This document shows, one piece after another, positions 1-41,269 of a stretch of DNA of 64,000 nt. Position 1 is the stretch's first letter, and each line of letters starts with the position of its first letter. Source of the stretch: Crambe crambe (taxonomy: Eukaryota > Porifera > Demospongiae > Poecilosclerida > Crambeidae); NCBI GenBank assembly GCA_963924555.1, contig OZ004583.1, forward strand, positions 744,001 through 808,000, read 5' to 3'. The notes under the pieces were generated by a model. The model was not told the origin of the DNA, did no database searches, and saw only the letters and a list, made by a program, of their open reading frames with translations. Made by a program: the position numbers and the translations under genes.

Positions 1-440
1 GATGTTTTTATTGACTTCTCTGGAGTGTGCTATCATTTTTGCATTCTCAGTAACTAATAATGAGCTAGCTAAGTGCTGGAGGTCAGAGCACAACTGCATG
101 GTGTCATTGCAAGAACCTCCGGAGAAAATAACTCCAACAACGTCTCCATATCCACTTCTGGAAACTGTCACAGCAGTCCTCTCCTCCTGAGCCAATAGTT
201 TAGCAAACATTACACTCAATATCACCAATGCCGTGAGTAATCAATTCAACCAAATAAATCTCTTTCTTCAGATTGTTAAGTTCAGTTGGTTCCTTGACTT
301 GCCAACACATTTACTACTAGCTAGTATGTAGCATCTCTTCCTTGCTGGTATATAATTATGTAGAGTAGGACGTTGACGTCTTAAGGTGATCAGAAGAAGG
401 ATGCAAGCTACTCAGATAGATCACAGTGGATTCCCTGTTA
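1..440 (+). pseudogene. Receptor pseudogene copy 1 with inverted exon 1
   Basis: This is the first of four copies of a broken type A receptor gene. The start codon region is in plus orientation (bases 3-16), but the rest of exon 1 up to base 232 is the reverse complement of a type A exon 1. The splice donor GTGAGT at 233 and the exon 2 remnant from 272 are again in plus orientation. Exon 2 carries a stop soon after its start and has lost its middle. The left edge is cut by the window. Sister copies start near 10,787, 22,998 and 32,789. Confidence 0.7.
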
Positions 441-765
441 TAATGTTTCTTATTCACAGTAGAGCCACAGAGTAGCTAGATATGAGTACTAAAACTCTGT
501 CACAGACAAACATATTGTACCTGCTAATTGAGTCTGCTGGATCATGCATCGTTAAGTAGAGAGAGAGAGAGATCATTATCTGTATGATAGCTTGTAGCTA
601 GCTAGCTAGCTGGATCATTGACAAGTTTGTGAATTCTGGCTGAGAACTCCCTGTAGCCAAGATAAATCCTCCACATGTACAGTTATAATTATATCTACTC
701 ACCAACACAAAATAATTGACCTGTATAGCTACATGTATAAATACAGTTAGCTATTTCAAAAGTTT

Positions 766-923
766 TCAGATCCATAGTAAATCTAACTCTTCCTGATTAT
801 GGACTGTACAATATGTTTTTTTTATTGCTTTCAGTGCATGACTCACATATGCTGGGTTCACCTGAGTCCTGCATTGTGTATGACTCACGTATGCTGGGTT
901 CACCTCAGTCTTACAGTGTTGTT
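766..923 (-). CDS. Tail exon of interrupted type B receptor B0 with two NPAY motifs
   Basis: Read on the minus strand, an acceptor (CCCAG at 924-928) opens a frame that contains the tail unit T-E-V-N-P-A-Y-V-S-H twice and stops at 766-768. The same exon occurs once-repeated in B2, B4 and B5. The matching TM/tail exon lies at 4,940-5,218. The 3.8-kb gap between them is an insertion, a TIR element carrying a LINE. The gene is truncated at about 5,219, so B0 is a remnant. NPxY is a known PTB-domain binding and endocytosis motif; its use here is inferred. Confidence 0.55.
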
Positions 924-999
924 CTGGGACGGCATAAATTACAGAGCAAAAATTACCACATGCAATCCTGTCGGTAGCTATCTCATTCCATTGGCTATA

Positions 1000-3900
1000 C
1001 CGTATGGGTAGATATTTTCGAGGGATTTTAATTTCGTGGTTTTCGCGGTCACTTATGATTTCACGGAATTTTTACTCGAATAATAATTATAATATGATAT
1101 TTAGCGCATGCGCATTAGTCATTACGCTCATCAAAAGCAAACATGTGAAAGCTCTATTGCTATGGCCACCTGGAATTGTAGGGGAATGGGTACGAGTGAG
1201 CCCTACCTGAAGGTTCTGTCACGAACTGCGGATGTGATCTTGATCCAGGAACACTGGCTTTGGCCATACGAACTACACAAGCTATCATCTTACCTGTCAG
1301 AGTTCGTGGCCTTAGGCAAGGCAGACCACAGGCTAACGGAGGTGTCTGATCTCAATCGAGGGTGTGCTTTGGAGAAAATCACTTGATGTCACTAACTCTA
1401 GTAAGTCCACCACTTCGGATCGCATTTGCTGTATTGATATATCAATGAAGCATAATACCCTAAAATCACTTGTTATAGTTAATGTTTATTTCCCATCTGC
1501 TGATCACGATCAGGCAGAGTTTGTACAATGCCTTGAGGACCTGGAGGAGCTAGTATGTGGCTTCGACTGTGCTGAACATGCCCTTGTTATTGGGGGTGAC
1601 TTCAACGCTCATCTGGGTACTCTAGCTGGTCCCAGAGGTTCTGGTACTCCAAACCAGAGGGGACTATTGCTCAAGCAGTTTATTGATCGTAACTCCCTCT
1701 TTGTTGCCTCACATTCCCAATCTTCCATGGGTCCTGACTATACTTTTCACTCAGGGAATCACTTCACTACTATTGACTATATCATTACTAATCCCCTGGC
1801 TGCCGAGTTCCTGGTAGGGGCTGACTGTCTGGCTGAGCACCCGTTGAATGTGTCGGACCACCTGGCACTTACTGTCTCAATGTCACTCACCTCACATCCT
1901 AATCCTCGTTCAGAGCAGAATCCGAAGATTGATTGGAAGAAATCAATTGAAACTGGGAAGCTATCTGATTATGAGGCAGCGATCAAAGACATAGTGATAC
2001 CCCTATTGGACGCCACAAATGATACTGTGACGAAACTTGATGACGAAATCTGTCATGTCAGCAAATCGATCATCCTGGCTGCGGACAACGAAGGTAAAAC
2101 AAGGGAAAAGGAGTAGAAAAGATTACTTCAAGGATGATCACTTACGAGAACTTTGTAATGCAAGTAAGGCTGCATGGGGAGTCTGGCAACAAGCAGGCAG
2201 ACCACGCGAAGGCAAACTATGGGAGAACTGGAAGGCTGCTAAAAAGGAAGTACAGAAGAGACTAAACACATTACGTGCAAGACGGACCGACTCAAAAGTG
2301 AAAAGCTGGATGACAAATTCCGGGAAAAGGACAGCAGGAGATTCAAACTGCCCAGGACTGGCACTACTCAAGGATTAAAGGTAAATGTAAATGGAACATC
2401 CTCACAGATAAAGACGAGGTTATGAATGCATGGGTCAATCATTTCAAACACCTCAGTACATCCAAGGCATCTGGATCTCTAACCCTCACGAACCTGCGAT
2501 CAGTTATTTCATCCTACAGGCGTGCATCCTTTGACAATGAAGACTTGATTCTCGATTGTGATGTCACCATTGAAGAGATTCAAGGTTGTATCAGATCGAT
2601 GAAGAAAGGAAAGGCATGCGGTCCTGATAGAATCTTGTCTGAACATGTTATCTATGGAGGTGACTACCTGGAGTTGTGGCTGAAAAAGATCTTCAATGAG
2701 ATTATACGTCTGGAAGGAATACCTCCCAGTTTCAAGGACACGATCATTATCCCTATCTACAAGGGTAAGGGCAGAGACCCACTCCTGACGAAGAACTATA
2801 GGGGCATTTCACTTTCATCCGTGATCGGAAAACTATTTGAACGAGTACTACTATTGAGGATTCAACCCATACTTGAAGAGAAAGGAATCCCACACCACAC
2901 CCAGACGGCATACCAGGCTGGCCTGTCCTGCAATGATGCAACAGAGGTGGTACAGGAGGTGATAAGAAGCTATATTGATGGTGGTGCAACAGTCTTCCAA
3001 TGCTTCTACGATCTGGAAAAGGCGTTCGATTCCATTGAGCACAACGTATTGCTCAATCATTTGTACAGAGCTGGTATCAATGGTAAGGCATGGAGGATCA
3101 TTGGGGCCTTCTACGACGATGCCACAGCCAGTGTCCGTCTTGGGTTGAATTACTCCGAGGCATTCCACCTTGGGCGTGGTGTGAAGCAGGGGTCAGTCTT
3201 GTCTCCGCTATTATTTTTACTTGTGATAGACTCTCTCCTTGAGGAGCTAGAATCTACAGGATTGGGAGTCTCGATCCATGGTCACTATCTGGGCTCCCTT
3301 GGCCATGCAGACGATCTGAGAGGCGTGGCTCCAAACTTAGATATCTTGGAACAACAAGCCTCTATTGTAAGGCAGTTCACAGTTGATAATGGCCTCCGAC
3401 TGAATGAAGATAAACTGGAGCTTCAAGAGTTCTCCATACGTAGACCTCAGCCAAGTACTATGTCCATAGGTGAGACAACCATTGCATCTGCGAGTTCTTC
3501 TACCTGCCTGGGTGTAAAGTGGTCACATGACCTCTCTCCAACAGAGTCAATTAATCACAACATTGCTAAGGCACGACAAGCCTTCTTCGCCCACCGAGCT
3601 AATGGCATAGCTTATGGTGAGCAGAACCCGCTCTCGTCCAGTGAACTATTCGAGGTCTGTGTCTTACCTGTCTGTCTGTATGGCTCAGAAAACTGGATTT
3701 TAACAGAGCCAATGATCTCATCGCTGGATCAGTTCCAAGGTGAACTCGGCAAGAAAATCCTAAACCTTCCAAAACATCACTCCAATCTCATCCCACTAGT
3801 TGCACTCCAGTGGCCTACTATGAGACTTCGTATCCTTCACCGCAAGATCAGTTTCCTCTGGCGTCTCCTACACCCCAAAAAGGTGTCCATCAGTGTGGAG

Positions 3901-4822
3901 GTATTCAACTGTCTGAGGGAGAAAGATTCTGAGCCACTAGTGATTCAGCAGTGCAAGTTCCTGGAGCAGGTTTATAAGACCAATCTGACAGAAGTTATTT
4001 TGCAGCAAGAAGAGAATTTTGAAAATCATCTCACCCTGAGAGCAGTTAAAGACAAACTCCAGGCTGCTGATCGTGACTACATTTGGTCCCTAGTGTCTTC
4101 ACGTGAGAACCTTGCTGCTCTCTCCCGTGATATTAGTTGGATGAGACTATGGGATGAGGCCAGGGAGCAAGGTATTCGAGGCGCCAGGGCAATTGCCACA
4201 GTCCTTCGCGTTATCACCATCCCAGTGTTCACAGATGACTTTGCCTGTCCTGTGTGCGGGCACAAGTACGGCAGGAGCAACCTTCCTGCGGACCACATCA
4301 CCAAGGTTCACCTCGGCTGCGAACTCAAGCACCTGCTGCACCTTCTCACAACTCCTTGCGAGGAAACCTTTGAAAAGGCACTATCACTTAGAACAATATT
4401 GCACACAACTCTATAGCAAGTTATTGTATCATGTCACATCATAAGCCTGGTTATTTCATATTATGTTCTCTCTGTATGTATCCCTTGCGGGCTTTACAAT
4501 GAAATTTTGAATTTACGGAGTACTTCGACCTCAGATGGCTCTCTACAAGTATTTCAAGTTGCCACTATCGTCTTCTGTACCAGCTGAAATGGTCAAAGAA
4601 GTTCTGAAGCTTCCCAAATTTCTCTATAAATGTGAAATCCATTAACCATTGAAGGGTAACTAAAATTCCAGCTGCTCACGATCGCCTGTACTGCGCGCAC
4701 ACGTACGCGCGAGCGATATATTGCAACACACGAAGCGAAATTAAAATCCTCGAATTTTTAAAATCTAGCTTGGCACTGGTATTCACGAAATTTTAATCCC
4801 TCGAAAATATCTACCCATACGG
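1000..4822. mobile_element. TIR element with TA target duplication, carrying a LINE
   Basis: The left end reads CCGTATGGGTAGATATTTTC and the right end at 4,803-4,822 is its reverse complement; matching continues for about 40 bases. The element is flanked by TA (998-999 and 4,823-4,824). The uninterrupted site can be read in paralogous sequence at 14,960 and 33,770. The short end regions look like a MITE into which the non-LTR element at about 1,100-4,515 inserted. Superfamily was not assigned beyond the TA target, which is typical of Tc1/mariner-type elements. Confidence 0.75.
1108..4416 (+). mobile_element. Decayed APE-type non-LTR retrotransposon (LINE)
   Basis: Broken open frames encode an APE-like endonuclease and a reverse transcriptase. 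The endonuclease runs from about 1,155 (T-W-N-C-R-G) to 2,090 with G-G-D-F-N-A-H, T-I-D-Y-I-I and S-D-H-L-A-L. The RT part from about 2,340 to 4,416 is open. It contains the finger motif N-Y-R-G-I-S-L, the catalytic Y-D-L-E-K-A-F-D, the G-V-K-Q-G-S-V-L-S-P motif, the H-A-D-D box, and a C-terminal C-x2-C...H...H knuckle (4,247-4,310). Frames shift near 1,364 and 2,095 and again before 2,340, so the copy is inactive. Clade was not assigned. The element lies inside the TIR element at 1,000-4,822. Confidence 0.85.
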
Positions 4823-4939: not shown

Positions 4940-5219
4940 CTAGCTTTACCTTCTCTCAAACTCCTAACCACTGTGACATTTTCAGACTCCAAATTCGGAA
5001 GATTAGCAATATTGTCTTCTTTATCTGCATGTATAATAATATCAGTGATGCATGCATGCAAAGATCTACTTCATTTTTTATAGTTGGCAAACTTGACTCA
5101 CTGGTCTTCCTGGAGCATTTGTAACAAATTAATCCGATGCACAGGGTTGAGATGAGAGAGAAGACCAGTCCTATATCAAGATGTATTCTAGGATTTTATC
5201 ACCACCAAGAGGTCCCGTC
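4940..5219 (-). pseudogene. 3' part of type B receptor B0 TM/tail exon
   Basis: On the minus strand this matches the membrane-proximal tail of type B genes (C-Y-K-C region, then P-T-I-K-N-E-V-R-S-L). The A-tract has six A residues, so the frame stays open into the longer tail, unlike B2, B4 and B5. The copy ends abruptly at about 5,219, where unrelated sequence of the D module starts. The upstream ectodomain exons are missing. Confidence 0.6.
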
Positions 5220-5229
5220 GTCATAAAAA

Positions 5230-7015: not shown

Positions 7016-7036
7016 AAAAACATGCAGTTTCTATAT

Positions 7037-7066: not shown

Positions 7067-7908
7067 TGCGAGACTAATCACTGTCATAATAATCACTGTC
7101 TGACCTGACATAGCTACCACAGTGCGCAGGTTCCCTGATCTACGTCATCAATAAGCCCCGCCCAAAACAGGAAGTGTGTATAATGTGTAACTTGAGTTGC
7201 CCATAAGTCAGGGAAAATGACAGTGAGAATTTTTCCCCTGTATAAACTGACTTAGACCTACCTGAAAATGCTGAAAAGAAAAAAAAAGAAACGATTTCAG
7301 TTACCCTTTAATGTTGTACTGTAGCGATGTTGTCTTCTTTATCTGCATGTATAATATCAGTAATACAAGCATGCAAAGATCTTGCTTTATTTTTTATAGT
7401 TGGAAAACTTGACTCACAGGTCTTCCTGGAGCATTTGTAACAAATTAATCTGATACACAGGGTTGAGATGAGAGAGAAGAGCAGTCCTATCCCACACCCA
7501 GCCCCTATCAAGATGTACTCAAGGATCTGATCAGGTCCACCACCTGTTCTGGTTGCTGTGACTGTGAAGGAAGAGACAGTTTTCATGGAGGTAGAAACCA
7601 TTGTTGTGCTTGATGGCTGTGCTGTAGAAGAGGTGAGGCAGTAGTTGCTTGAATTGAGTGGTGACACCAGCCCATCAAATTTCTCTATAAAATATGTAAG
7701 TTAGTAACAGTTTTCTCATGTATAATAGCTAGCTACCTTTCCTGAGATCAGTGGTTCCATTCAACTTAAAGAAGACACAGTCCACTTTTGTATTGGCATC
7801 ACACACTATATTCATACGGAACACTTCCCCATCATAATCCGTCCGATTGTATGTAAGGTTATCAGTGACCACCTGCAAGTAAGAATCTTGTAATTTAGGC
7901 ATGCAGTT

Positions 7909-7944
7909 CAGTGGCGGCTGAGGGCGGGGGCGAGAGGGGCTAGA

Positions 7945-7975
<31 letters not shown>

Positions 7976-9099
7976 CTTTTGGACCCATTGGACATTATAT
8001 AATTGACTAACTGCAGCAATAAACTCTACTGTCTAGTCACTAATGATTGCATTATTTCAAGTCATAAATGATGTTACACATTAGGCCGAACCAATTAAAT
8101 TTCCTGTTTCTCATCAGAAAAATCCAATGCTGCGTGCGAAAACAAAACCAAAACAAAAAACACAAGGACTTTCCAGCTGCACTGAGTTATGTAGCTCAGT
8201 GGCGGAGCAACTGGTCAGGTTAGTCAGGTTTCAACCTGACCACTATTTTTTTTTTCAATCAATCTATTTAGGCCATTGTGGCATAAAATTTTACCTTGTG
8301 TGACCACTTCATATTAACATAAAAGGGTGTGGTTAGGCAAAAGTGGGCATGGTTAGGAAAAAATTTTCCGCGCACAAGTGCACAGATATTTTCCCATGCA
8401 AACAACCTGACCACTTCAGTTTTTGTCGCTCCGCCCCTGTAGCTAGGTATATTTAATAGCTAGCCAGCCTAGTTAACTTGGTCTACATAAGCTGCTAACT
8501 AGCTAGTGTGTGTGCCATTAAAAAGAGCAAATTTTTTGTTGCCTAACTCCTTACTTGAGCATCTGTCACAAATTTCTCACAATGAGTCTCTCTATTATCT
8601 ATGATTAGACTGGCACAACAAAGTTAAAGTTTTGTTTGTGTTTTTCAATTTGGGAAAAATCAATGAGGGAGCTGATGAGAAACAGGAAATTAAATTGGTT
8701 TCGCCTTAGCAGGGTTTCATCTACTGGGGGCCGGAGGAGTGGGGGGAAGCTTCCCCCCTCCCCCCAAATTTTTTTATGTTCATAAGGTTTATAGTTATAG
8801 CTATACTTATTGATTGAAAGAAATGTAATCCTCTCCCTAATAGAGTATTGGAATTTGTGGAGAATTAGCAAACAATGAGTCCTCCAAAAAAAGTAGAGTC
8901 CTCCAAAAAAAAGTAAAATTTTCTTTCGTGCTCTGCGCGAGAGGGGGCACATCTCCCTCCCACACCCTCCCCCTCACTGTTGCCTATGGCCACATGATCA
9001 GTGAGCTTCCTCCCTCCCCCCCCCCCAAAGTGAATCGTTGATTCGCAATTTTGAGCCCCCCCCCCCCCCCCCACTTTTTGGAGTCCTCAGCCACCCCTG
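7909..9099. mobile_element. TIR element CAGTGGCGGCTGAGG with 5-bp target duplication
   Basis: The left end CAGTGGCGGCTGAGG pairs with the right end CCTCAGCCACCCCTG. It is flanked by the direct repeat CAGTT (7,904-7,908 and 9,100-9,104), and the empty site is seen in B2 intron 2. The element holds poly-C runs (7,946-7,974; 9,053-9,072) and a second element (8,197-8,439). No transposase frame is evident, so it is probably non-autonomous. Confidence 0.75.
8197..8439. mobile_element. Nested 243-base MITE, TAGCT target duplication
   Basis: Ends are CAGTGGCGGAGC and GCTCCGCCCCTG. The flanking repeat TAGCT lies at 8,192-8,196 and 8,440-8,444. It is nested in the element at 7,909-9,099 and shares its CAG...CTG end style and 5-bp duplication, suggesting the same transposase type. 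No coding content. Confidence 0.75.
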
Positions 9100-9239
9100 C
9101 AGTTACACTCACCCTGATGGTGATTCCCATAGAACTAGTCATAATGGAAAATCCACTGTGATCTATTTGAGTAGCTTGCATCCTTCCTCTGATCACTTCA
9201 AGACTTCCTACTCTACACTCTCCTCCTCCAGAACCCTGT

Positions 9240-9690
9240 AAGTGGTATTCATCACTACTGTGGTGGATCACTGGTGGTGGTTTTAGTGGGAGCTTTGCTG
9301 ATAGCAAGTGGACCATTTGATCAACTATCAGCTCTGGAGGAGGTGGTCACCATCAGCAGAAGTGGAGATGGAGATCTATTTGAAGTCAGAAAGCTCTTGC
9401 TTTAATGAGAGTTGTGCTTGAGATTTCAGCACTTACTTAGTGGAGGAGAGGGAGTGTGAAAATGACACCACACTCCAGAAAAGTGAGTAGCTTACAGTAG
9501 CTAGCTATAATATTCATTTCTACAGTTATATCATGGACTTATAGATTGCTCAGTTCAGCTGGTCCCCAGAATTCCCCTCACATTTACATTTACTACTAGT
9601 AGCATATCTTCCTTCATTGCTGATGATGGGGCTCTGATGGTGCTGGACTCTGTCACTAATGAGTATGGTGTAGGCAGAGAACCCATTATC
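9240..9690 (+). pseudogene. Inverted exon 1 and half of exon 2 of B1
   Basis: Exon 1 of a type B gene is in plus orientation at about 9,270-9,486 (signal peptide, then S-A-L-E-E-V-V-T-I-S-R-S-G). A one-base change shifts the frame near 9,385. Exon 2 starts at 9,541 and stops at about 9,680. The missing half of exon 2 is the minus-strand piece ending at 9,236. The segment is therefore a local inversion within B1, followed directly by a LINE insertion. Confidence 0.65.
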
Positions 9691-12937: not shown

Positions 12938-13357
12938 TAATAATGAGCTAGCTAAGTACTGGAGTTCAGAGCACAACTGGTATACTTCCAGAGAAAATAA
13001 CTCTAATAATGTCTCCATATCCACTTCTAGTAACTGTCACAGCAGTCCTCTCCTCCTGAGCCGATAGCTCAGCAAACTTTCCGCTCAATATCACCAATGT
13101 CGTACGCGTGAGTAGCTAATCAATTTAACCAGATAAATCTCTTTTTTACTTGCCAACACATTTACTACTAGTAGCATCTCTTCCTTCATTGCTAGTGTGT
13201 GTGCAATAGGAAGTCTTGAGGTGATCAGAAGAAGGATGCAAGCTACTCAGATAGATCACAGTGGATTCTCTGTTTCAATGTGCATGTCCACACAAAATTT
13301 CAGTTCCAAGGCAACCATCATGGTGTGAGAAAGTGGCCGAAATGAATGTGCAATATA

Positions 13358-18035: not shown

Positions 18036-18078
18036 GTATGTAGGCTGTTCAAGTACATGTATCTAAAATCCCATTATG

Positions 18079-25633: not shown

Positions 25634-27592
25634 ATGCAGATGTCTTTATTGACAGTTTTGGTGATATTGAGTGGAACATTTGCTGAATTATCGGCTCAGG
25701 AGGAGAGGACTGCTGTGACAGTTACCAGAAGTGGATATGGAGACATTTTTAGAGTTATTTTCTCTGGAGGTTCTTGCAATGATACCAGTTGTACTCTGAA
25801 TTTCAGCACTTACTTAGTGGAAGAGAGAGAATGCAAAAATGATATCACACTCCAGAGAAGTGAGTGATGATTAAATCCTATAGCTATAGCTGCATGACAA
25901 CAAGATGAATCTCTTTCTTCAGATTGTTCGGTTCAGCTGGTCCCCATAATTGCCAACACACTTACTACTGGTAGCATCTCTTCCTTCATTGCTGGTGATG
26001 GGACACTGATGGTGCTGGACTCTGTCACTAATGAGTATGGTGTGGGCGAAGTGCGCAAAAAGAGTGGTAATTTAGAGAGACAGACCTCTGGAGGAGGAGA
26101 GTGTAGAGTAGGAAGTCTTGAAGTGATTAGAGGAAGAACACAAGCTACTCAAATAGATCACAGTGGATTCTCCATTATGACTAGTTCTATGGGAATCACC
26201 ATCAGGGTGAGAAGAGATGCCTATAGCTACTTATAGCATTGCTGTGTTGTATGGTGGCTCTCAGTGGTACCTATCGTAGTGACTGTGCATGGATCTCAAG
26301 CAATTGACTGTATTTATAACTGCTATGTATTAGGTGGTCACTGCTAACCTTCCATTCAATCGGACGGATTATGATGGGGAAGTGTTCCGTATGAATATAG
26401 TGTGTGATGATAATCATTTGGTGGACTGTGTCTTCTTTAAGTTGAATGGAACCACTGATCTCAGGAAAGGTAGGTCAGGTAGCTAACTATAGAACATATT
26501 AAACATGCACATGCATAACTTCTAGCTAATGATAAATTGTGATTCTAATAGGGAAATTTGGTCTGGTGCCTCCTATTCGACCCCTTGACATCAACAATTA
26601 CTGCCTCATAGCAACAACACAACCACCAAGCAGCACCACACCCTCTGATACTCCAAACCCAGCATCAGCGAGTACAGATGATACGACTTCAGAACCCTTT
26701 ACCTTCTTCAGCTCGGGTGATGATATGATGTTTGAGTCAGTAAACTCAACAGAAATGATAGGAGGTGATAAGAATATGACAGATTTCTTGAATGCAACGA
26801 CCACAACTGATGGCAGCATCAGTGGTAATTCTCTCCTCATGTACATCCTGATAGGAGGAGAGTGTGGTACAGGACTACTTGCTGGCCTTATCTTTTTAAC
26901 GTGCATCATACAATGTCGGGTTGCTTACAAGAAATCAAAGTCAAAAAAATCTCGTACTTTGGAGCTTTGGGAAAATAGCCACGGATTATCAACTGGTCAT
27001 TCAAGACATAAACAAGGTATGTAGCTAGGCTGCTACATGTGTCTATAATCCCATTATGCTATGCTACTTTATTATACTGGTAGCTATCCATCATAATAGT
27101 TATTATAAACTCAAATGTTTTCAATAGATGTTGACACACGAGCTTACGAAACGGTTGTCTTATCTTCCCAACAACCTCAGCCAGAGCAGTCTAGCCTAAA
27201 GGAACATGGGAGACATGCCAAAGGTATAATTTGAACTACGTAGCTAGCAAAGCTAACCTGCAGCTAAAATAGTACAGTGGCCCTTTCGAACATGGGCACC
27301 CTTGGGACCCAGCCTTTTAGAGAGGTTATTGGATAACTCTTTTGGAAGTTATTTATAATACAAAGGTTTTAGATCATCCTCTGTTGGGAGATTTGAACTT
27401 CAGATGGTTGGAGCTTACACTGTTAAAAATGCTTTCATGATACAATAATGCTTTTGTCCTGCAGATAAACATTACATAACTCAAGAGAACCCAGCGTACG
27501 TGAGAACCGGCAGTTTGGGAGCAGCAAGAGAGGTGGAATCTGGTGAGAGTGAATTGGAGGATTACACATATGTACGTGTGCATCGTCATTAA
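25634..27592 (+). CDS. Type A receptor A2, complete (444 residues)
   Basis: Exons: 25,634-25,859; 25,923-26,206; 26,334-26,469; 26,552-27,016; 27,128-27,223; 27,465-27,592, with an intact frame throughout. Order: signal peptide; Cys-containing segment (residues about 25-75); N-C-S-V-Q segment with cassette R-K-K-S-G-N-L-E-R-Q (75-170); Y-D-G-E-V-F segment (170-215); Thr/Ser/Asp-rich stalk (215-308); TM helix (about 311-336); cytoplasmic tail of about 108 residues. The tail holds R-A-Y-E-T-V-V, Q-E-N-P-A-Y-V and D-Y-T-Y-V-R-V. NPxY and YxxV motifs bind PTB or SH2 domains in known receptors, so a phosphotyrosine signalling role is inferred. No known family was recognised for the ectodomain. Confidence 0.8.
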
Positions 27593-28165
27593 CTTTGCAG
27601 GAACCAGAATCTTCATGCATGCTATGTGTTCTAAATACTATAGCTACAGCTAGTTGAGTGCCACAACTAATTGTTAATATGTAGACATTTGCACTAGATC
27701 ATTCCATGGTACCAAAGTAGCTCATACATCATGAAATTGTTTATAATTATGTATATACAAGCCAATCTTCCCTATAGGTCTTCTGTATGAGGTAAAGGGT
27801 CCAGGAAGGACCCTGGAGGTTAGCTATTATAAATTATGCTACTAGAATGTGGTAAAATAGCTGAAGGAGGTTATGCTATGAGGCATAATGTATAGCTAAT
27901 TATTCTCTATCATAATAAATTATGGAGCATGTTAGTAGGTAACTATAATAATAATTGCTTAGCTTACCTCCTTGGGATCATGTGATTAGTGAAAAGTACA
28001 CAGCCTGCAGTGGAGCATCCTTTTTGGGATTCACTATCACATCATGTTTATGTAAACTGCTGTGAGATGTGTGTATTAAAAGTCACGACATACTGTAATT
28101 TAAGGATTGGTAGAGAGCTTCAAGTCTTGTGTGGTAACTGGCAAGCTAGCTAGTAGCTAGCTAAT
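27593..28165. other. Spacer and promoter region upstream of P1
   Basis: No coding signal is seen. The region is homologous to 37,271-37,816 upstream of the type C gene. It therefore marks the end of A2 and the promoter of the C-type copy at 28,166. Confidence 0.5.
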
Positions 28166-28675
28166 ATGATCATGGATTCTGGTAGACTCTCATGGAGTGT
28201 GGTAGCTTTAGTGACAGCATTACTGATGCCAAGTGGAAGTTTTGTTGAAGTGTCAGCTCTGAAGGAGGTGGTCACCATCAGTAGAAGTGGAGAAGGAGAT
28301 ACATATAGAGTCAGATCCTCTGATGGCTCTTGCTCTGATGAGAGTTGTGCTGGAGACTTCAGCACTTACTTAGTGGAAGAGAGGGAGTGTGAAAATGACA
28401 GCACACTCCAGAGAAGTGAGTAGCTTACAGTATAATAGTTGATTCATTTCTCTTGAACACATTAATATTATCATGGACTTATAGATTGCTCAGTTCAACT
28501 GGTCCCCATAACTCCCAACACATTTACTACTAGTAGCATCTCTTCCTTCATTGCTGGTAATGGGACTCTGATGGTGCTGGACTCTGTCACTAATGAGTAT
28601 GGTGTGGGCAGAGTGCGTAAAAAGAGTGGTAATTTAGAGAAACAGGATTCTGGAGGAGGAGAGTGTAGAGTAGGA
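28166..28675 (+). pseudogene. P1: truncated C-type receptor copy
   Basis: Exon 1 (28,166-28,412; M-I-M-D-S-G-R-L-S-W-S) is intact and splices in phase 1 to exon 2 (about 28,485). That exon is cut at 28,675 just after the cassette R-K-K-S-G-N-L-E-K-Q and G-E-C-R-V-G. Sequence beyond is unrelated. Its promoter and signal peptide match the type C gene at 37,817, so it is a broken paralogue. Confidence 0.65.
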
Positions 28676-29280
28676 ATAATCTGGCGCAGCCAGCCCCGAG
28701 CGCCGAAGGCGCGAGGGTCTGGAGACACATAATACTTGGACTTGTTCATTTAGCAAGAAATCTGCTAATTGTCTGTCTGTCACGCCTTGATATCTAGGAG
28801 CTAGCGCACTTACCACAGTTCAAACAGCTACGAGCACACAGCAGCTGAAAAGTTATTCATTTAAAAAAAGCGAAATCCTTCAATTCCGTGCCGTCTTTGA
28901 AAAAAACGTGCATTCCTATACTATGACTGCCTATACTCCATATAATGCACACTCCATACTGCCGACCATTACCTACTTTATGTTCAGGCTTAAGGGTGAG
29001 CTGATCTGCATCTGTTTAGTGTAGAGCAACAGTATAATTAGCTGGAGTGTCTTTAGTGACAAGTTTACGATGGTGTTCAAGCTTTATGTAGCCATTAGCT
29101 ACCTCTCCAAGCATGTGGACTCTGTAGTAGAAACATGCTAGCTAGCTCAACTGCTTTATAAATGATTGGAAATGAATGATAATACCTCCTGCTCATCAGT
29201 TATCTACTCAATATCTGTCAATACTTGCTATAACTAAGCATTTTCAGTGTGTGCTGAGGGTTAGCACTTTAGTGCTTTTC
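28676..29280. other. Unrelated inserted segment
   Basis: The segment starts with a GC-rich stretch (CCCCGAGCGCCGAAGGCGCG) unlike its surroundings. It contains no frame above about 60 codons that I can support. It joins P1 (plus) to B6 (minus) and is probably mobile or rearranged DNA. Confidence 0.35.
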
Positions 29281-29544: not shown

Positions 29545-30139
29545 AGTACTCACCCTGATGATGATTCCCATAGAACTAGTTAGCTATAATGGAGAATCCA
29601 CTATGATCTATTTGAGTAGCTTGTGTCCTTCCTCTAATCACTTCAAGACTTCCTACTCTACACTCTCCTCCTCCAGGAGTCTGTCTGATTCCATCATTAC
29701 TGTGTACTCTGCCCACACCATACTCATTAGTGACAGAGTCCAGCACCATCAGAGTCCCATCACCAGCAATGAAGGAAGAGATGCTACTAGTAGTAAATGT
29801 GTTGGGAATTATGGGGACCAGCTGAACTGAGCAATCTATAAGTCCATGATATAGCAAGCTCTTATAATGTGCAAGAGAGATGAATGAGAATTAGCTAGCT
29901 ATACTACTCGCTTCTCTGGAGTGAGTCTGTGTGGTGTCATTTTCACACTCCCTCTGTCTCCTCCACTAAGTAAGTGCTGAAGTCTCCAGCACAACTCTCA
30001 TTAAAGCAAGAACCTTCAGAGGAACTGACTCTAAATATATCCCCATTTCCACCTCCCCTTGAGCTGATAGTTCAACAAATCTTCTACTTGCTATCAGCAA
30101 TGCTGTCACTAAAAAAGCTACCACACTACAAGACTCCAT
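29545..30139 (-). pseudogene. B6: receptor remnant, exons 1 and 2 only
   Basis: Exon 2 (about 29,561-29,838, minus) is nearly intact with cassette H-S-N-D-G-I-R-Q. Exon 1 (about 29,915-30,139; M-E-S-C-S-V-V-A-F) has lost the block encoding V-T-I-S-R-S and is frameshifted, with small insertions near its end. Exon 3 and the TM exon are absent downstream. Pseudogene. Confidence 0.65.
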
Positions 30140-32427: not shown

Positions 32428-32515
32428 GCAGCTGATAGTTGATCAAATGGTCCACTTGCTATCAGCAAAGCTCCCACTAAAACCACCACCAGATATCCAC
32501 CACAACCCATCATCA
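32428..32515 (-). pseudogene. Fragment of type B exon 1
   Basis: Only the signal-peptide half of a type B exon 1 remains (M-G-C-G-G-Y-L ... S-G-P-F-D-Q-L-S-A). No donor or further exons adjoin it. It is head-to-head with pseudogene copy 4, echoing the B3/copy 3 pair. Confidence 0.6.
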
Positions 32516-32788
32516 TCTATCAACATGCACTATCATTAGCAATTAGCTTGAGCAATGGTCATGTACATATAAAATCTCTCCTTAATAGCTAGCTTAATAT
32601 AATAACTCCTCTAGTGTGCTTTAGTGTGGCCACATGCTTCAGCCCATACATGTTCTTCCCAAAATCATATTTGAATAGTCTGTTATGATAGCTACAAGCT
32701 AGCTGTAGTCCAAGTTATGACTATCCTGCATAGCAGTCATAACAGAGGCATTCTTACTATTGTACCAGCTAAAGTCAATGAGTCAGTT

Positions 32789-33260
32789 ATGATGCAGATG
32801 TCTTTATTGATTTCTCTGGAATGTGCTATCATTTTTGCATTCTCAGTAGCTAATAATGAGCTAACTAAGTGCTGGAGTTCAGAGCACAACTGGTATACGT
32901 ATCATTGCGAGAATCTCCAGAAAAAATGATTCTAATAATGTCTCCATATCCACTTCTGGTAACTGTCACAGCTAGCAGTCCTCTCCTCCTGAGCTGATAT
33001 AACTCAGCAAACTTTCCACTCAATATCACCAATGCCGTGAGTAATCAATTCAACCAGATAAATCTTTCTTCAGATTATTCAGTTCAGTTGGTTCCTTGAC
33101 TTGCCTACACATTTACTACTAGTATGTATGTAGCATCTCTTCCTTCATTGCTAGTGTGTAGAATAGGATGTTGACGTCTTGAGGGGATCAGAAGAAGAAT
33201 GCAAGCTACTCAGATAGATCACAGTGGATTCTCTGTTGTAGCTAATGTGTGTCTGTTTCT
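32789..33260 (+). pseudogene. Receptor pseudogene copy 4 with inverted exon 1
   Basis: Same inversion boundaries as at 22,998. The antisense frame from the ATG stops early at 32,929. The exon 2 remnant follows a cttcag acceptor near 33,072 and lacks its middle. Confidence 0.7.
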
Positions 33261-33588
33261 TGTTCACAGTAGAGCTACAATAGCTAGTTATGAGTACTAA
33301 ACTCTGTCACAGAGAAACGTATTGTACTAGCTAATTGAGTCTGATGGGTCATGCATCATTATATATATAGAGAGAGAGACCTTTATCTGGATGATAGCTA
33401 GCTAGCTAGCTGGATCATTGACAAGTTTATGAATAACTGGATTCTGGCTGAGAACTCCTGTAGTCAAGATAAATCCTCCACAACTAGCTATACACTTATA
33501 ATTATATCTACTCACCAACACAAAATAATGACAGTACATGTATAAACACAGTTAGTTATTTGAAACAAGTCAGAAGTTTTCAGATCCA

Positions 33589-35176
33589 TTAATCTAACTC
33601 TTCCTGATTATGGACTGTTGCTTTCAGTGTATGACTCACGTATGCTGGGTTCACAGCAGTCCTGCAGTGTTGTTCTGGAACGGCATAAATCAGAGGGGGA
33701 AAAAATTACCACCTAATCCTCTCAATGTCATTCTTACAGAAGTTAGCTATCTCATTCCATTGGCTATAACTAACTAATGATTCATGTACAAAATTTAGCA
33801 GCCTGGGATGTATTTTTCACACCATAGAGATGATGAGAGAATTGCATAAGCTGCATTTTTTATTTTTTCATAGAGTTATGGAACTAGCTAGCTTTACCTT
33901 CTCTCCAACTCCTCTCCACTGTGACATTTTTAGACTCCGAATTCGGAAGATTATTAATGTTTTCATAGTACACTGTAGCAATGTCGTCTTCTTTATCTGC
34001 ATGTATGGAGTAATGCAAGCATGCAAAGATCTTACTTCATTTTTATAGTTGGCAAACTTGACTCACTGGTCTTCACGGAGCATTTGTAACAAATTAATCC
34101 GATGCACAGGGTGGAGATGAGACAGAGGAGTAGTCCTATCCCACACCCAGCCCCTATCAAGATGTACTCAAGGATCTGATCACCAAGAGGTCCACCATCA
34201 CCACCTGTTGCGGTTGCTGTGACTGCTGTGAAGGAAGAGACTATTCCCATGGAGATAGAGGCCATTGTTGTGCTCGATGGCTCTGTTGTAGAAGAGGAAT
34301 GGAGTAGTGGAGTGGGAGACACCCGCCCACTAAATTTCTCTATACAAATATGTAGCCATAGTTAGTAACAGTTTCTCATGTATAATAGCTAGCTACCTTC
34401 CCTGAGATCAGTGGTTCCATTCAACTTAAAGAAGATGCAGTTCACCAAATCATTGTTATCACACACTATATTCATACGGAACACTTCCCCATCATAATCC
34501 GTCCGATTGTATGTAAGGTTATCAGTGACCACCTGTGGGTAAGAATCTTATAATTTAGGCATGCAGTTACATTAACTAGTACTCACCCTGATGGTGATTC
34601 CCATAGAACTAGTTATAATAGAGAATCCACTGTGATCTATTTGAGTAGTTTGTGTTCTTCCTCTGATCACTTCAAGATTTCCTATTCCACACTCTCCTCC
34701 TTCAGGAGTCTGTATCTCTGAATTACCACTCTCTCTGTGCACTCTCCCCACACTATACTCATTAGTGACAGAGTCCAGCACCATCAGAGTCCCATTACCA
34801 GCAATGAAGGAAGAGATGCTACTAGTAGTAAATGTGTTGAAAATTATGGGGACCAGTTGAACCGAACAATCTATAAGTCATATGATAGCAATGTGTAGAG
34901 AAATAAATCATCTAGCTATTCACTTCTCTGGAGTGTGGTGTCATTTTCACACACTCTCTCCTCCACTAAGTAAGTGGTGAAGTTTCGATCACAACTCTCA
35001 TTATGACAAGAGCCGTCAGAGGAACTGATTTTAGCAATGTCTCCTTCTCCACTTCGAATTCTGCTGATGCTGACCACCTCCTTTTGAGCCAATAGTTCAA
35101 TAAAACTTCCACTTGCTATCAGCAATGCTGTCACTAAGACCACTACCATGTTATGTAGTGATCCACCACAACCCAT
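33589..35176 (-). CDS. Type B receptor B5
   Basis: Minus-strand exons: 34,924-35,176; 34,587-34,870; 34,397-34,532; 33,898-34,339; tail exon 33,589-33,674. The ectodomain differs from other B genes (S-R-I-R-S-G-E-G-D-I-A-K; cassette H-R-E-S-G-N-S-E-I-Q; C-D-N-N-D-L-V-N-C) and is almost the same as type C gene 37,817-41,269. TM and C-Y-K-C are as in B2. The A-tract has five A and translation stops at P-T-I-K-M-K; a further 4-base deletion lies beyond. The tail exon contains V-N-P-A-Y but is out of reach. The truncated product is plausible as a short-tailed receptor. Confidence 0.65.
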
Positions 35177-35412
35177 TATCAAGAAATAAACTCCTTGACG
35201 AAATTAGCAATTAGTTTGAGTATTAAACTCTGTATGGCCACACATTCACATGCATCAGCCGATATGTGTTCTTCCCAAAATTAGTCTGTTATGATAATAG
35301 CTGTAGTCCATATTAATATTATGACTATATCTTGCATAGCAACCATAAACAGAAGCATTCTATTGTAGCTACCAGCTAAAGTCAATGAGTCAAGATTATA
35401 TATGCAGTTATT
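35177..35412. promoter_or_regulatory. Divergent promoter between B5 and A3
   Basis: The 236-base spacer has the conserved TTGCATAGCAACC (about 35,333) and TGAGTCA (35,387). Layout is the same as for B2/A1. Confidence 0.45.
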
Positions 35413-37270
35413 ATGCAGATGTCTTTAGTGACAGCTTTGGTGATATTGAGTGGAACGTTTGCTGAACTATCGGCTCAGGAGGAGAGGACTGCTGTGACAG
35501 TTACCAGAAGTGGATATGGAGACATTGTTAGAGTTATTTTCTCTGGAGGTTCTTGCAATGATACCAGTTGTGCTCTGAACTCCAGCACTTACTTGGTGGA
35601 GGAGAGAGAATGCAAAAATGATATCACACTCCAGAAAAGTGAGTGATGATTAAATCCTATAGCTATAGCTGCATGACAACAAGATGAATCTCTTTCTTCA
35701 GACTGTTCGGTTCAACTGGTCCCCATAATTCCCAACACATTTACTACTGGTAGCATCTCTTCCTTCATTGCTGGTGATGGGACTCTGATGGTGCTGGACT
35801 CTGTCACTAATGAGTATGGTGTGGGCAGAGTGCACAGTAATGATGGAATCAGACAGACTCCTGAAGGAGGAGAGTGTAGAGTAGGAAGTCTTGAAGTGAT
35901 GAGAGGAAGGACACAAGCTACTCAGATAGATCACAGTGGATTCTCCATTATAACTACTTTTACAGGAATCACCATCAGGGTGAGAAGAGATATAGCAACA
36001 TTGCTGTGTTGTATGGTGGCTCTCAGTGGTACCTATCGTAGTGACTGTGCATGGATCTCAAGCAATTGATTATTTTTTATAACCGCTATGTATTACGCAG
36101 GTGGTCACTGCTAACCTTACATACAATTGGATGGATTATGATGGGGAAGTGTTCCGTATGAATATAGTGTGTGATGCCAATACAAATGTAGACTGTGTCT
36201 TCTTTAAATTGAATGGAACCACTGATCTCACAAGAGGTAGGTCTGGTAGCTAACTATAGCACATATTAAACTGTGATTCTAATAGAGAAATTTGGTCTGG
36301 TGCCTCTCCTTCACATCAACAATTACTGCCTTGTAGCAACAACACGACCACCAAGCAGCACCACACCCTCTGATACTGCAACAACAGATGATGACTCAAC
36401 ATCAGTGAGTACAGATAATACGACTTCAGAACCCTTTACCTTCTTCAACTCAAGTGATGATATGATGTTTGAGTCAGTAAACTCGACAGAAATGATAGGA
36501 GGTGATGAGAATATGACGGATTTCTTGAATGCAACGACCACGACTGATGGCAGCATTAGTGGCAATTCTCTCCTCATGTACATCCTGATAGGAGGAGGGT
36601 GTGGTACAGGACTACTGGCTGGCCTTATCTTTTTGATGTGCATTATACAATGTCGGGTCGCTTACAAGAAATCAAAGTCAAAAAAATCTCGTACTTTGGA
36701 GCTTTGGGAAAATAGCCAAGGATTATCAACTGGTCATAAACAAGGTATGTAGCTAGGCTGTCACATGTGCTATCCTAGTTATTATAAACTCAAATTATCT
36801 TTTTCAATAGATGTTGACACACGAGCTTATGAAACGGTTGTCTTATCTTCCCAACAACCTCAGCCAGAGCAGTCATTGACAACTAGCCTAAAGGAACATG
36901 GGAGACATGCCAAAGGTATAGTTTGAACTAGCTAGCTAGCTAACCTGCAGCTAAAAATAGTACAATGGAACCTTCGAATAATGGACACCCTTCCTTGGGA
37001 CCCAGCCTTTTATCCTTTGTAGAAAGGTTATCGGATAACTCTTTGGAGGTTATTTATAATACTTAAGGTATAGCTATATACTGAGATTTGAACTTTTGGA
37101 GCTTACACTGTCAAATGATACAATAATGCTTTTGTCCTGCAGATCAACATTACATAACTCAGGAGAACCCAGCGTACGCAAGAACTGGCAGTTTGGGAGC
37201 AGCAAGAGAGGTGGAATCTGGTGAGAGCGAATCGGAGGATTACACATATGTACGTGTGCATCGTCATTAA
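35413..37270 (+). CDS. Type A receptor A3, complete (443 residues)
   Basis: Exons: 35,413-35,638; 35,702-35,979; 36,101-36,236; 36,286-36,744; 36,811-36,915; 37,143-37,270. The frame is intact. Domain order is as in A2. Exon 2 carries cassette H-S-N-D-G-I-R-Q (as in A1 and B2), and the TM-proximal stalk is slightly shorter at its start. The tail has R-A-Y-E-T-V-V, Q-E-N-P-A-Y-A-R and E-D-Y-T-Y-V-R-V. The strong match of the tail to A2, with stop and splice sites kept, suggests it is functional. Ligand unknown. Confidence 0.8.
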
Positions 37271-37816
37271 CTCTGCAGGAACCAGAATCTTCATGTGTCC
37301 TAGATACTATAGATTACAGCTAGTTGAGTGCCACAACTAATTGTATAGACATTTGCAATGGATCATTCAGTACCAAAGTAGCTAATCGCGAAATTATTTA
37401 TAATTATGTGTATATATAGTTACAAGCCAATCTTCCCTGGGTCTTCTGTATGAGGTAAAGGGTCCAGGAAGGAGGTTAGCTATTATAAATTATGCTATAG
37501 GTAATGTGGCAAAATTTACTGAAGGAGGTTATGAGGCATAATGACTTTACACAGTAATGTGGTCCTTAGCTTTGGTATTCTCTATCATATGGACCATGTT
37601 AGTAGGTAACACTCTGCTTAGCTCATGTGATTAGTGATTGGAAAGCACAAAAGTACACAAGCTGCAGTGGAGCATCCTTTTTGGGATTCACTATCGCATC
37701 ATGTTTATGTAAACTGAGAGATATGTGTGTATTAAAATATTAGCTATACTGTAAGGATTGGTAGAGAGCTTCAAGTCTTGTGTGATAACTAACTGGCTAG
37801 CTAGTAACTAGCTGAC

Positions 37817-40800
37817 ATGATTATGGATTCTGGTAGACTCTCATGGAGTGTGGTAGCTTTACTGACAGCATTGCTGATAGCAAGTGGTGAACTATTGGCT
37901 CAAAAGGAGGTGGTCAGCATCAGCAGAATTCGAAGTGGAGAAGGAGACATTGCTAAAATCAGTTCCTCTGACGGCTCTTGTCATAATGAGAGTTGTGCTG
38001 GAAACTTCACCACTTACTTAGTGGAGGAGAGAGTGTGTGAAAATGACACCACACTCCAGAGAAGTGAATAGCTAGATGATTTATTTCTCTACACATTGCT
38101 ATCATATGACTTATAGATTGTTCGGTTCAACTGGTCCCCATAATTTTCAACACATTTACTACTAGTAGCATCTCTTCCTTCATTGCTGGTAATGGGACTC
38201 TGATGGTGCTGGACTCTGCCACTAATGAGTATAGTGTGGGGAGAGTGCACAGAGAGAGTGGTAATTCAGAGATACAGACTCCTGAAGGAGGAGAGTGTGG
38301 AATAGGAAACCTTGAAGTGATCAGAGGAAGAACACAAACTACTCAAATAGATCACAGTGGATTCTCTATTATAACTAGTTCTATGGGAATCACCATCAGG
38401 GTGAGTATTAGTTAATGTAACTGCATGCCTAAATTATAAGATTCTTACCCACAGGTGGTCACTGATAACCTTACATACAATCGGACGGATTATGATGGGG
38501 AAGTGTTCCGTATGAATATAGTGTGTGATAACAATGATTTGGTGAACTGCGTCTTCTTTAAGTTGAATGGAACCACTGATCTCAGGGAAGGTAGCTAGCT
38601 ATTATACATGAGAAACTGTTACTAACTATGGCTACATATTTGTATAGAGAAATTTGGTGGGCGGGTGTCTCCCTCTCCACTACTCAATTCCTCTTCTACA
38701 ACAGAGCCATCAAGCACAACAATGGCCTCTATCTCCATGGGAACAGTCTCTTCCTTCACGGCAGTCACAGCAACCGCAACAGGTGGTGGTGGTGGACCTC
38801 TTGGTGGTGATCAGATCCTTGAGTACATCTTGATAGGGGCTGGGTGTGGGATAGGACTGCTCCTCTGTCTCATTTCAACCCTGTGCATCGGTATATGCTG
38901 CCTCTCTCTCAAGAGCAAGCACCAAAGAGAATCGGTACTCAACATGGAGATACCAGCAGTCCAGGAAGAAAGTGAGTTTTCCAACATTAATTTTCTTTTA
39001 GAGTTTTAGAGTTTATGCATACTCAACTGACAGAGATGTTTTGGGAATTACTGTGTAAGTAAATTGTTCACAACACAAAATCATAGCAGACATAGCAGTT
39101 TATACAAAGTGTAGCTACACATCTGCTCAATTAAAGGGGGGAAGGCTAATAGGTAATAGCTTATTATAATTAAAGAACTATAGGTTAGCTAGATCACTAT
39201 GTCCATGTTTTCTTGGAAGTTTTAGGAGAAAAAAGGTATCATGATTATTTATACACAGCTATACATGATATGAGTATTTAACAAAATCATAACATGCTAA
39301 ATCTAAGCAGAACATTACATAGCTAGTATACCATTCACTTTCAATATGCTGTAAACTCCCAGTATGTGTATAATCCTATGTAACTTGTCTATATGGGGTT
39401 GATATATCAGTAGTGTTTTGTTAAGTAGGTAGCTACATTACTACATAATCATTACACAGTTGTTGATTAGGAGGAGTAGCTATAAGATCATGCCTTAAGG
39501 CAAGCAGGGGTATATTATTATACCAATTGTGTACCATTTATGGGAACTTGGTTATAACTACTGCCTTAGGAGCAAGCAAGCATGGATGCCTATAGGAGCC
39601 CTGGAGTATAGCATGCAGGAACAGTATGGTCCATAGCCATACGGGAGTTAAATTATAGCCTATACTCCATGGTACTTGTGTCATGATGGTATTTAGCTAT
39701 ATAATGCGCATGGTAAACTTTCAGGTCACTACCAGATGCAGAATCCGACCTACACTCAGAACAACGAGACCACCTCAGCCGTTGGTGCAGAAACCAACAC
39801 AGAACAGCCCACAGAAAGAGAAGGAGGAGGAGAAGAAGAAGGAGGAGGAGGTGAGAGGGATACTGCCTGATACTGAGTTAGTCTATAGGGGAATTAGACC
39901 TACAACTCCACACCATATAGTTATCATGAAACATGCCTCAATAGCTTATGCATATTATCATGAAACATCCCTTAATAGCTTATACATATTATCATGAAAC
40001 ATCCCTTAATTCGTGACGATATTGGCTAATAAGTGTTATGGTGTGCAGTAAGCTACCCTGGGATCAAGAAAAGGAATGAAACAGTGGAAAGTTCAGATTT
40101 GGGTTTGGTAAAATCTGCGGGTGTATGCTTAGCCAGTTTTAAAAAATCAGCTCCAAAAGGTCAAAGATCAGACCAATCCTTTCTTTTTATTAGATCACAT
40201 GTATGCCATGGTTGAAGACGCTCAAGCTGAAGTTGCAGAGGTGAAACGTAAGGAAGAGAGGCAGAGAAAGTTCCAGTACGCCAGCATTACCTTTGATACC
40301 TTTAAACCAACAGAAAAACGCACTCCTTCTGTTTACCAGCCTGAACCAGACTGTGAGCACCAAGAACATGGTCGTCTCTCAAGTTTTAGGACGAGTGACT
40401 ATAACCCCTCAGCCGATCGTGTTGAGCTGGCTCGTAGCTATGAAATTGTTTCACTGATCCCTATAGCAGATCAGGCCAGGAAGAAGGATGAGTGGAGAGA
40501 TGCTGGTGGTCAAGAAGAATATCATAAACTGACTCGGCAGGGGAGCAAAATGAAGGGATATACTCAGAGAAATTTCTCTATTTCGAATACGAATCATCCC
40601 GCAAGCAAAGATTATGCCCAACTTCAAATGCAGATGAAACCACTGCCACGGGAAGAAGAAATAAAACTACCTCCACGCACAACATTGCAGGGAGAAGAAA
40701 TAAAACCTCCGCCACATGCACTTCAGGAAGAAGTAGCCACTAATAAACCTCCGATTATGAAGAGGTCGTTCGTACAAAAGAAGGAGCAGCGAACAATGAA

Positions 40801-41269
40801 TAAGTTCCCGTCTTATTCAGAGGTGCAGAAAGCCAGAGGGCCACCCTTACCTCCTCGATCCGATCCCATCATCATGGTAGACAATGGAGGAGGAATGGAA
40901 GAGGAACATTATAAAGTTCCGTCAGTAAGACGCAGCGTTCATGATGCCGATATGGAGCAGGGTATGGATGCTGACGCACAAGGTCACTACGATCATCCTT
41001 CCAGTTTGGTGAGAGTGGCATGGTCGTGTGAAAACCTGAAGAAGAAGAGCAGCAGTCAAGAAGGTGGTACTAGCAAGACAATAGTTGTGGGAGGGACCAT
41101 CTATGATTCTCCTTCCTCCACCCTCATGGTTCGTAGCCAATCGTCTATGATGCAGAACGGGATGCAGGCACCAAGTCAGAGCAATTTGTCCGAGCGCACG
41201 ATTTCGCAGGATTCTTACATCGAGATGACAGGGAGTCAAGTGAGTTATGAACGACAAAACTATAGCTAA
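37817..41269 (+). CDS. Type C receptor with long tyrosine- and proline-rich signalling tail (730 residues)
   Basis: Exons: 37,817-38,063; 38,117-38,400; 38,455-38,590; 38,648-38,971; 39,725-39,850; 40,194-41,269. Phases agree and the total is in frame. The signal peptide and three ectodomain segments match B5. A short Ser/Thr stalk and TM (about residues 277-302) follow. The tail of about 430 residues starts C-C-L-S-L-K-S-K. Exon 5 gives Q-N-P-T-Y plus a Glu/Gly run. Exon 6 gives Y-E-I-V, Y-H-K-L, D-Y-A-Q-L, H-Y-K-V-P, H-Y-D-H-P, I-Y-D-S-P, S-Y-I-E-M and the SH3-type P-P-L-P-P-R. These motif classes recruit SH2, PTB and SH3 proteins in known receptors; signalling is inferred. No kinase domain. 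It appears to be the only intact long-tailed member. Confidence 0.75.
38972..39724. other. Type C intron 4
   Basis: A 753-base intron between the TM exon and the NPTY exon. It has GTGAGT at the start and TTTCAG at the end. Nothing else was recognised in it. Confidence 0.6.

Follow-up and report, generated by a model that had tools for sequence, protein, structure and literature searches.

Gene conversion in the paired ceacam receptors of Xenopus is described as "exactly restricted to the exon", with poorly conserved introns and genes in opposite orientation (PMC5112662). Here, we analyze a cluster of receptor genes from the demosponge Crambe crambe, found in a 64,000-nucleotide stretch of one haplotype (C5:744001-808000, where C5 is contig OZ004583.1; "the window" below), of which positions 1-41269 hold the receptor cluster. 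Like the Xenopus genes and mammalian CEACAM (PMC5112662; PMC2832619), its members lie in the same cluster and combine a near-identical, putatively binding, exon with different tails; the likeness extends to conversion, as it appears, limited to the binding exon beside diverged introns and, in the Xenopus case, to the opposite transcription of partners. Unlike ceacam and CEACAM, the sponge family gives no Pfam match to the immunoglobulin (Ig) fold, two consecutive exons are homogenized, and tyrosine-rich tails are set against nearly absent ones instead of immunoreceptor tyrosine-based inhibitory motifs (ITIM) against activation motifs (ITAM). Our preferred reading, to which we assign a probability of about 0.55, is that the locus encodes a paired-receptor-like system in which a module of exons 2 and 3 is kept alike, by exon-limited gene conversion, between signaling and nearly tail-less receptors.

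Other described systems also invite comparison. The Alr genes of Hydractinia encode type I receptors with an Ig-like ectodomain and allelic polymorphism, sponge aggregation factors are large extracellular complexes and not small transmembrane (TM) receptors, and for the sea urchin Sp185/333 genes we know of no alternative signaling tails. Alr is likewise a duplication- and pseudogene-bearing region in an early-branching animal, and the Sp185/333 immune genes also form clusters, undergo gene conversion, and show mosaics of elements; unlike the Crambe family, they are two-exon genes with almost no pseudogenes (PMC5103432). The homogenized core of the Crambe family sets it apart from Alr, and vertebrate paired receptors are the closer published parallel. 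Aggregation factors are likewise candidates for sponge self-recognition, their polymorphism being indicated by the title of a work cited in PMC5450542. Our searches of the open-access literature found no invertebrate paired receptors with gene conversion and, by title among the papers listed, no sponge ITIM or self/non-self receptors and no gene-converting immune receptor family in Porifera; for fusion or chimerism in Crambe crambe, the only match concerned the ribosomal DNA of another sponge.

Homogenization confined to exons 2 and 3

Positions 1-41269 contain 16 relatives, whole or broken, of one single-pass receptor (eight gene-like and eight broken), in agreement with the earlier note on this DNA, which had counted at least ten. 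That note also distinguished three kinds of tail (A, B, and C), and these are recovered here as medium, short, and long, respectively. Six gene models are intact, with GT..AG at all introns. The C gene, C38 (37817-41269, + strand; six exons, five GT..AG introns, 730 amino acids [aa]), runs from a signal peptide through ectodomain exons 1-3, a stalk/TM exon, and an NPTY exon to a 358-aa tail exon with many tyrosines and PPLPPR. The A genes lie on the + strand: A36 (35413-37270; intact, 443 aa, medium tail with NPAY and DYTYVRV), A26 (25634-27592; intact, 444 aa, medium tail with NPAY), and A17 (16663-18043; 369 aa), in which the ectodomain and TM segment are intact, tail exons 5-6 are lost, and the end falls within a former intron. 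The B genes lie on the - strand: B34 (34032-35176; intact, 326 aa, ~18-aa tail), B16 (15226-16372; intact, 328 aa, short tail), B22 (21622-22757; intact, 324 aa, short tail), and B25 (24159-25373), which has an in-frame stop in exon 1 and is a pseudogene in the sequenced haplotype. Outlying genes used below include L23a and L23b (C5:622-625 kb), L24 (C1 at 7.573 Mb), and the diverged, unlinked L25 (C21 at 198-199 kb; 56-65% identity to C, by exon).

We compared 14 copies (eight from the window and six from outside it), setting aside eight fragments and a diverged copy, D. Exon 1 of A (three copies) and B (six copies) has a mean DNA identity of 72.5%. The corresponding means are 90.1 and 91.9% for the two parts of exon 2, 91.7% for exon 3, and 63.1% for exon 4 (first 330 bp), against 58.2, 48.5, and 56.8% for introns 1, 2, and 3. 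The ectodomain and TM exons, which the earlier note took to be common to the classes, do form a shared set, but the stalk/TM exon of A has strongly diverged (over these 330 bp, it is 63% identical to B and 61% to C). The proportion of silent differences (pS) between A and B is 0.417 in exon 1, 0.121 in exon 2, and 0.069 in exon 3.

It might be argued that nothing has been homogenized and that exons 2 and 3 are instead under extreme constraint, silent sites included; copy D, although very diverged, is still recognizable in exons 2-3 (~40% identity there; best E to another member, 0.0012) and is not homogenized with the rest. We consider this explanation highly improbable. The pS of A and B against L25 is 0.39-0.43 in exon 1, 0.48-0.50 in exon 2, and 0.68-0.69 in exon 3; since these values are high in exons 2-3, the silent sites there are free in themselves, and it is the cluster that has homogenized them. 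The conflict between gene trees and the excess difference of B34 and L24 in exon 2 over their introns, both given below, also speak against it. L25 largely refutes constraint, unless L25 was itself released from it.

The introns provide a second line of evidence. We compared them with shuffled sequence in five pairs in all, with splice ends trimmed. For A17-L23a, A17-B16, and A26-B16, the nine introns all score at the level of shuffled sequence (z = -0.2 to 1.0); those of A17 and A26 are 91-96% identical (z = 4.4-9.5). A17 and L23a, ~138 kb apart, are ~97% identical in exons 2-3, a likeness that extends to either end of exon 2 and to where exon 3 begins but not into the introns, and that excludes the final few bases of exon 3. 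By Fisher test, pS is higher in exon 1 than in exons 2+3 at p < 0.01 in 28 of the 30 A-versus-other pairs and in none of 13 pairs with L25 (lowest p = 0.37), these pairs sharing history and therefore not being independent.

The trees of exon 1 (222 columns) and exons 2+3 (414 columns) conflict. On exon 1, the A copies form a clade (100/99), and L23a is placed with B copies. On exons 2+3, an A clade is rejected (log-likelihood [lnL] 42 worse; approximately unbiased test, p-AU = 0.0005), with A17 sister to L23a (92/88) and C38+B34 joining A26 (85/91). Forcing A17 and L23a together on exon 1 is rejected as well (lnL 101 worse, p-AU = 0.0001), a p value that is descriptive because the pair was picked after seeing the data. 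Within the window, B34 and C38, in opposite orientation and 2.6 kb apart, are 97.2% identical over 1042 bp (37859-38891 in C38), introns included; the match stops in the TM region, beyond which C runs on into its long tail and B ends ~18 aa past the TM core. Altogether, exons 2 and 3 are homogenized across A, B, C, and L22-L24, and this homogenization is confined to the exons. We infer that gene conversion is the process behind it.

The template of that conversion could also have been spliced RNA or its complementary DNA (cDNA), a reverse transcript recombining with the gene in place of DNA-DNA conversion, and the edges of likeness do fall at splice sites. Identity is elevated in the last part of exon 1 as well (alignment columns 211-270, ~86%), and a long reverse transcriptase open reading frame (ORF) lies at 2314-4416. 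We nevertheless find this route improbable. Compared with L25, that part of exon 1 reaches almost the same identity (78.6 and 86.7%), maybe through constraint, and unlike introns would halt DNA conversion too. Moreover, pS between L24 and B34 is higher in exon 2 (0.172) than in exon 3 (0.071), which a single spliced tract would not give, and no intronless copy was noticed among 58 genome matches, mostly exon by exon.

Replacement of exon 2 by outside sequence predicts that exon 2 will sometimes be more divergent than its flanking introns, even between copies of the same class. Of 24 same-class pairs, three show such an excess at p < 0.05: B34-L24 (introns differ by 3.2%, exon 2 pS 0.172, p = 0.0018), C38-L24 (introns 3.9%, exon 2 pS 0.188, p = 0.0019), and A26-A36 (p = 0.014). 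The B34-L24 and C38-L24 pairs look as if exon 2 alone had been replaced, and their excess probably reflects the same event.

Receptor anatomy and tail classes

Each of the eight models examined for hydropathy has one N-terminal and one TM segment. The cysteine-bearing ectodomain of ~200 residues, encoded by exons 1-3, sits atop a Ser/Thr-rich stalk. As read from the models, exon 1 carries three cysteines (in addition to the signal peptide) and exons 2 and 3 carry two each; the stalk/TM exon has one extra cysteine in A, B16, and B22 and none in C, B34, and L24. Exon lengths place introns 1 and 3 in phase 1 and intron 2 in phase 0. The earlier note recognized no named family in the ectodomain, and none emerged from our searches: Pfam returned no family above its cut-off, Ig included, for the ectodomains of A26, C38, D, and L25, and a Protein Data Bank (PDB) sequence search with C38 exons 1-4 gave 0 matches at E up to 5. 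Two AlphaFold predictions had a mean predicted local distance difference test (pLDDT) score of 32.0 and 37.4.

Beyond the TM core, there are 422 residues in C, 104 in A26, 18 in B34, B16, and L24, 33 in B22, 41 in L23b, and 34 in L23a, where splicing to another short exon is possible instead. Short tails are thus also found outside the window, in L23a, L23b, L24, and L22b as modeled. The A tail, from exons 5-6, carries YETV, NPAY, and YVRV. The C tail (425 aa) contains 17 tyrosines, seven YxxL/I/V/M motifs against 2.9 expected by shuffling (P = 0.014), three YxxP motifs (P = 0.096, likewise by shuffling), and one PPLPPR; its 358-aa exon matched only itself in a genome search, and Pfam gave nothing for it above the cut-off. 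In the B tails, as read from the models, no motif of the NPxY, YxxL/I/V/M, YxxP, or PPLPPR type was seen. The 19-residue TM cores have no charge in C38 and B34 and one Arg near the end of the core in A26. Since neither the C tail nor the A26 tail contains a strict ITIM or ITAM, activating and inhibitory roles are not assignable, and the contrast is one of signaling-type versus nearly tail-less receptors. An open frame with ITQENPVY (compare ITQENPAY of A) lies in L22a, 5-6 kb left of the window, as a frame only, the gene model stopping at the TM exon, and VANPNY occurs in D, in an open frame only. These frames suggest that the NPxY tail may be old in the family.

Each of the three A genes in the window stands head to head with a B copy, and one of these B copies is a pseudogene. 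The start codons are separated by 290 bp in B16/A17 (16373-16662, a candidate shared promoter), by 260 bp in B25/A26 (25374-25633), and by 236 bp in B34/A36 (35177-35412). The B and A genes of such a pair may share a promoter region.

Weighing the paired-receptor reading

On the paired-receptor reading, exons 2 and 3 would form the putative ligand-binding part. The tyrosine tails of A and C (NPxY and YxxL/I/V/M in both, YxxP and PPLPPR also in C) could recruit PTB, SH2, and SH3 proteins, and B would bind the same ligand without signaling, as a decoy, competitor, or dimer partner, and could thereby set the A/C threshold. Ectopic conversion limited to exons 2 and 3 would keep the module alike in A, B, C, and L22-L24, while the introns, exon 1, and stalk/TM exon of A and B would have long diverged. 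Similar putative binding regions with different tails, as expected of paired receptors, are found between C and B34 (97%) and between A and B in exons 2-3. The presumed binding exons are also kept alike, presumably by conversion. The sponge genes resemble vertebrate paired receptors in genome signature and probably in their working. That sponges independently evolved paired receptors, from an undescribed, apparently non-Ig family whose signaling and tail-less partners, head to head three times in this window, are kept matched at the presumed ligand-binding module by two-exon conversion, is a broader proposition that we advance only tentatively.

Several observations weigh against the paired-receptor reading. 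NPxY is common among receptor tails, and the opposition of ITIM to ITAM or to a partner with a charged TM segment was not found: no strict ITIM or ITAM occurs in the C and A26 tails, and of the TM cores of C38, B34, and A26, only the last carries a charge, one Arg near its end. Homogenization is not proof of a common ligand, and decay (B25 broken, the A17 tail lost) could explain part of the tail contrast. The evidence on conversion is itself uneven. No excess of exon 2 over introns is present in 21 of the 24 same-class pairs. The introns of A17 and L25 give z = 3.4, 0.7, and 0.1 against shuffled sequence for introns 1-3. L23b is weaker in the Fisher test, accounting for the two misses of 30 (p = 0.011 with A17 and 0.019 with A36), and of the two copies on other contigs, only L25 escapes homogenization; L24, with its B34-type introns, does not. 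Between B34, C38, or L24 and other B copies, exon 1 pS (0.26-0.37) exceeds the intron difference (0.11-0.18), as if exon 1 of these three came from another lineage. Exon 1 may therefore have been exchanged too and is only a rough clock. Since it is not a clean one, the intron comparison carries the homogenization argument. Finally, dN/dS is close to or greater than 1 in some B pairs (B16-L22b, 1.67; B16-B22, 1.09).

These last ratios, together with the many broken copies, the stop in B25, and the lost A17 tail, would suit a simpler account: ordinary receptors (for adhesion, development, or microbe uptake) in birth-and-death evolution, with conversion striking only the stretch that is still alike, no pairing, and B genes in decay. 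The window, however, holds three intact B genes with open frames and GT..AG introns, short tails recur in the outside copies listed above, and the classes share exons 2-3 but not exon 1, the introns, or exon 4. We regard this account as rather unlikely.

The earlier note further described the cluster as fast-evolving, and the analysis does not support this in that form. The pooled ratio of nonsynonymous to silent differences (pN/pS), taken over 91 pairs of the 14 copies with pseudogene B25 and distant L25 included, is 0.59 overall (exon 1, 0.56; exon 2, 0.63; exon 3, 0.56); relative to L25, dN/dS is 0.30-0.38. The core of exons 2-3 is homogenized, and only small patches vary. Among 13 copies, the most variable patches are codons 131-150 of exon 2 (mean entropy 0.76-0.96 bits) and codons 191-200 of exon 3 (0.76 bits), with a lesser one at codons 211-220 of exon 3 (0.43 bits). 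In these patches, A copies are as unlike one another as they are unlike copies of other classes. A26 has the version KKSGNLERQTSGGG, which is found again, with one change each, in B22 and L23b; transfer of versions between tail classes by conversion would be expected to produce this pattern. Positive or rapid diversifying selection was considered and dropped given the pooled pN/pS of 0.59, the small windows above 1 (up to 3.3) resting on few sites.

Variable patch versions common to several tail classes (131-150; 191-200 and 211-220) also lend themselves to an Alr-like allorecognition locus, the comparison drawn in the earlier note, in which the proteins would be polymorphic self-markers, the patches in exons 2 and 3 would carry the allotype, and conversion would spread the versions. 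The tandem clustered copies with pseudogenes are in keeping with this, and allograft responses have been studied in another demosponge, Amphimedon (PMC5450542). We judge such a locus unlikely, since pN/pS is 0.59 overall and homogenization lowers, rather than raises, the diversity between loci.

Surroundings of the cluster and what it may mean

The cluster spans C5 up to 782 kb and extends ~10 kb beyond the left edge of the window; outlying copies lie elsewhere. By tblastn with exemplar exons, copies of exons 1, 2, 3, and the stalk/TM exon extend over the window from ~14 to 38970, and the long C tail runs to 41269. The unit order proposed in the earlier note (pseudogene, B minus, A plus, C plus) is confirmed by DNA repeats of 83% (22677-28676 versus 32430-38308) and 87% (14476-18107 versus 23499-27104). 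No C copy was found in the first unit by tblastn of exons, and that of the second unit is truncated (28166-28675, +; exon 1 and two thirds of exon 2). The many pseudogenes of the same note are likewise present as eight broken copies by tblastn, in addition to the B25 stop. Specifically, a broken B copy (7308-9268, -) retains the stalk/TM exon along with exon 3 and, ~1.2 kb from exon 3, part of exon 2, and adjoins an inverted piece consisting of exon 1 and the 5' half of exon 2 (9301-9678, +). Inverted-exon pseudogenes lie at 14-442 (exon 1 pieces minus, exon 2 pieces plus), 12987-13274, 23022-23341, and 32856-33246; further fragments comprise a broken exon 1 with most of exon 2 (29579-30071, -) and a piece of a TM exon (4999-5215, -).

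Amid the broken copies at the left edge of the window lie non-long terminal repeat (non-LTR) retrotransposon ORFs (1337-4416, +) with Pfam matches to an endonuclease (Exo_endo_phos_2, E = 1.7e-11) and a reverse transcriptase (RVT_1, E = 4.7e-23). At the site of the lost A17 tail exons, an inverted repeat of ~326 bp, 96% identical (18323-18644 and 20631-20956), flanks ORFs, one of which (20005-20568) has no Pfam match; this element (18323-20956) is possibly a DNA transposon that removed the tail. Directly beside the cluster are exons of a multi-PDZ protein (43067-47879, -), with PDZ matches in three ORFs (E = 2.9e-5 to 2.2e-14). Farther on, a two-gene unit is tandemly duplicated (54227-59146, -): an unnamed membrane protein (54227-55396 and 57057-58109, DNA 73% alike) adjoins in each case a short ORF with a weak Death-domain match, both below the Pfam cut-off (56121-56663, E = 0.0047; 58637-59146, E = 0.073).

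In the genome as a whole, the window included, a search with exon 2 alone gave 19 matches at E <= 0.001, genome match counts being lower bounds. Copy D, at the left end of the cluster (C5:734641-736631), has the same exon order and cysteine pattern as the family. Because L24 has B34-type introns and homogenized exons despite being on another contig, it probably moved recently, which leaves L25 as the only old unlinked copy. Exon 1 and exon 2 pieces also occur beside L24 (L024:4702-6849, C1), in the same orientation, such pieces being inverted in the window units, and L24 probably moved as part of a unit with them. Intron 2 of L25 (C21:193001-203000) has a GC donor (GCAAGT) if the model is right; the other modeled copies have GT. 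Scans of prokaryote and viral contigs, which cover only these, gave 45 and 19 pattern matches and no relatives.

With homogenization limited to exons and randomized introns beside them, the cluster offers a clear example from nature of conversion that stops at splice sites. The cluster is also a candidate locus of ~50 kb for self/non-self or microbe recognition in sponges, a long-open question. The genomic signature of paired receptors, present in a sponge and with an ectodomain that has no name, would open the origin of the paired design to testing. If sponges did evolve paired receptors independently, Crambe could use the complex encoded here to sense self/non-self or microbes, and the balance of signaling and non-signaling receptors on one ligand would predate or parallel the vertebrate immune system.

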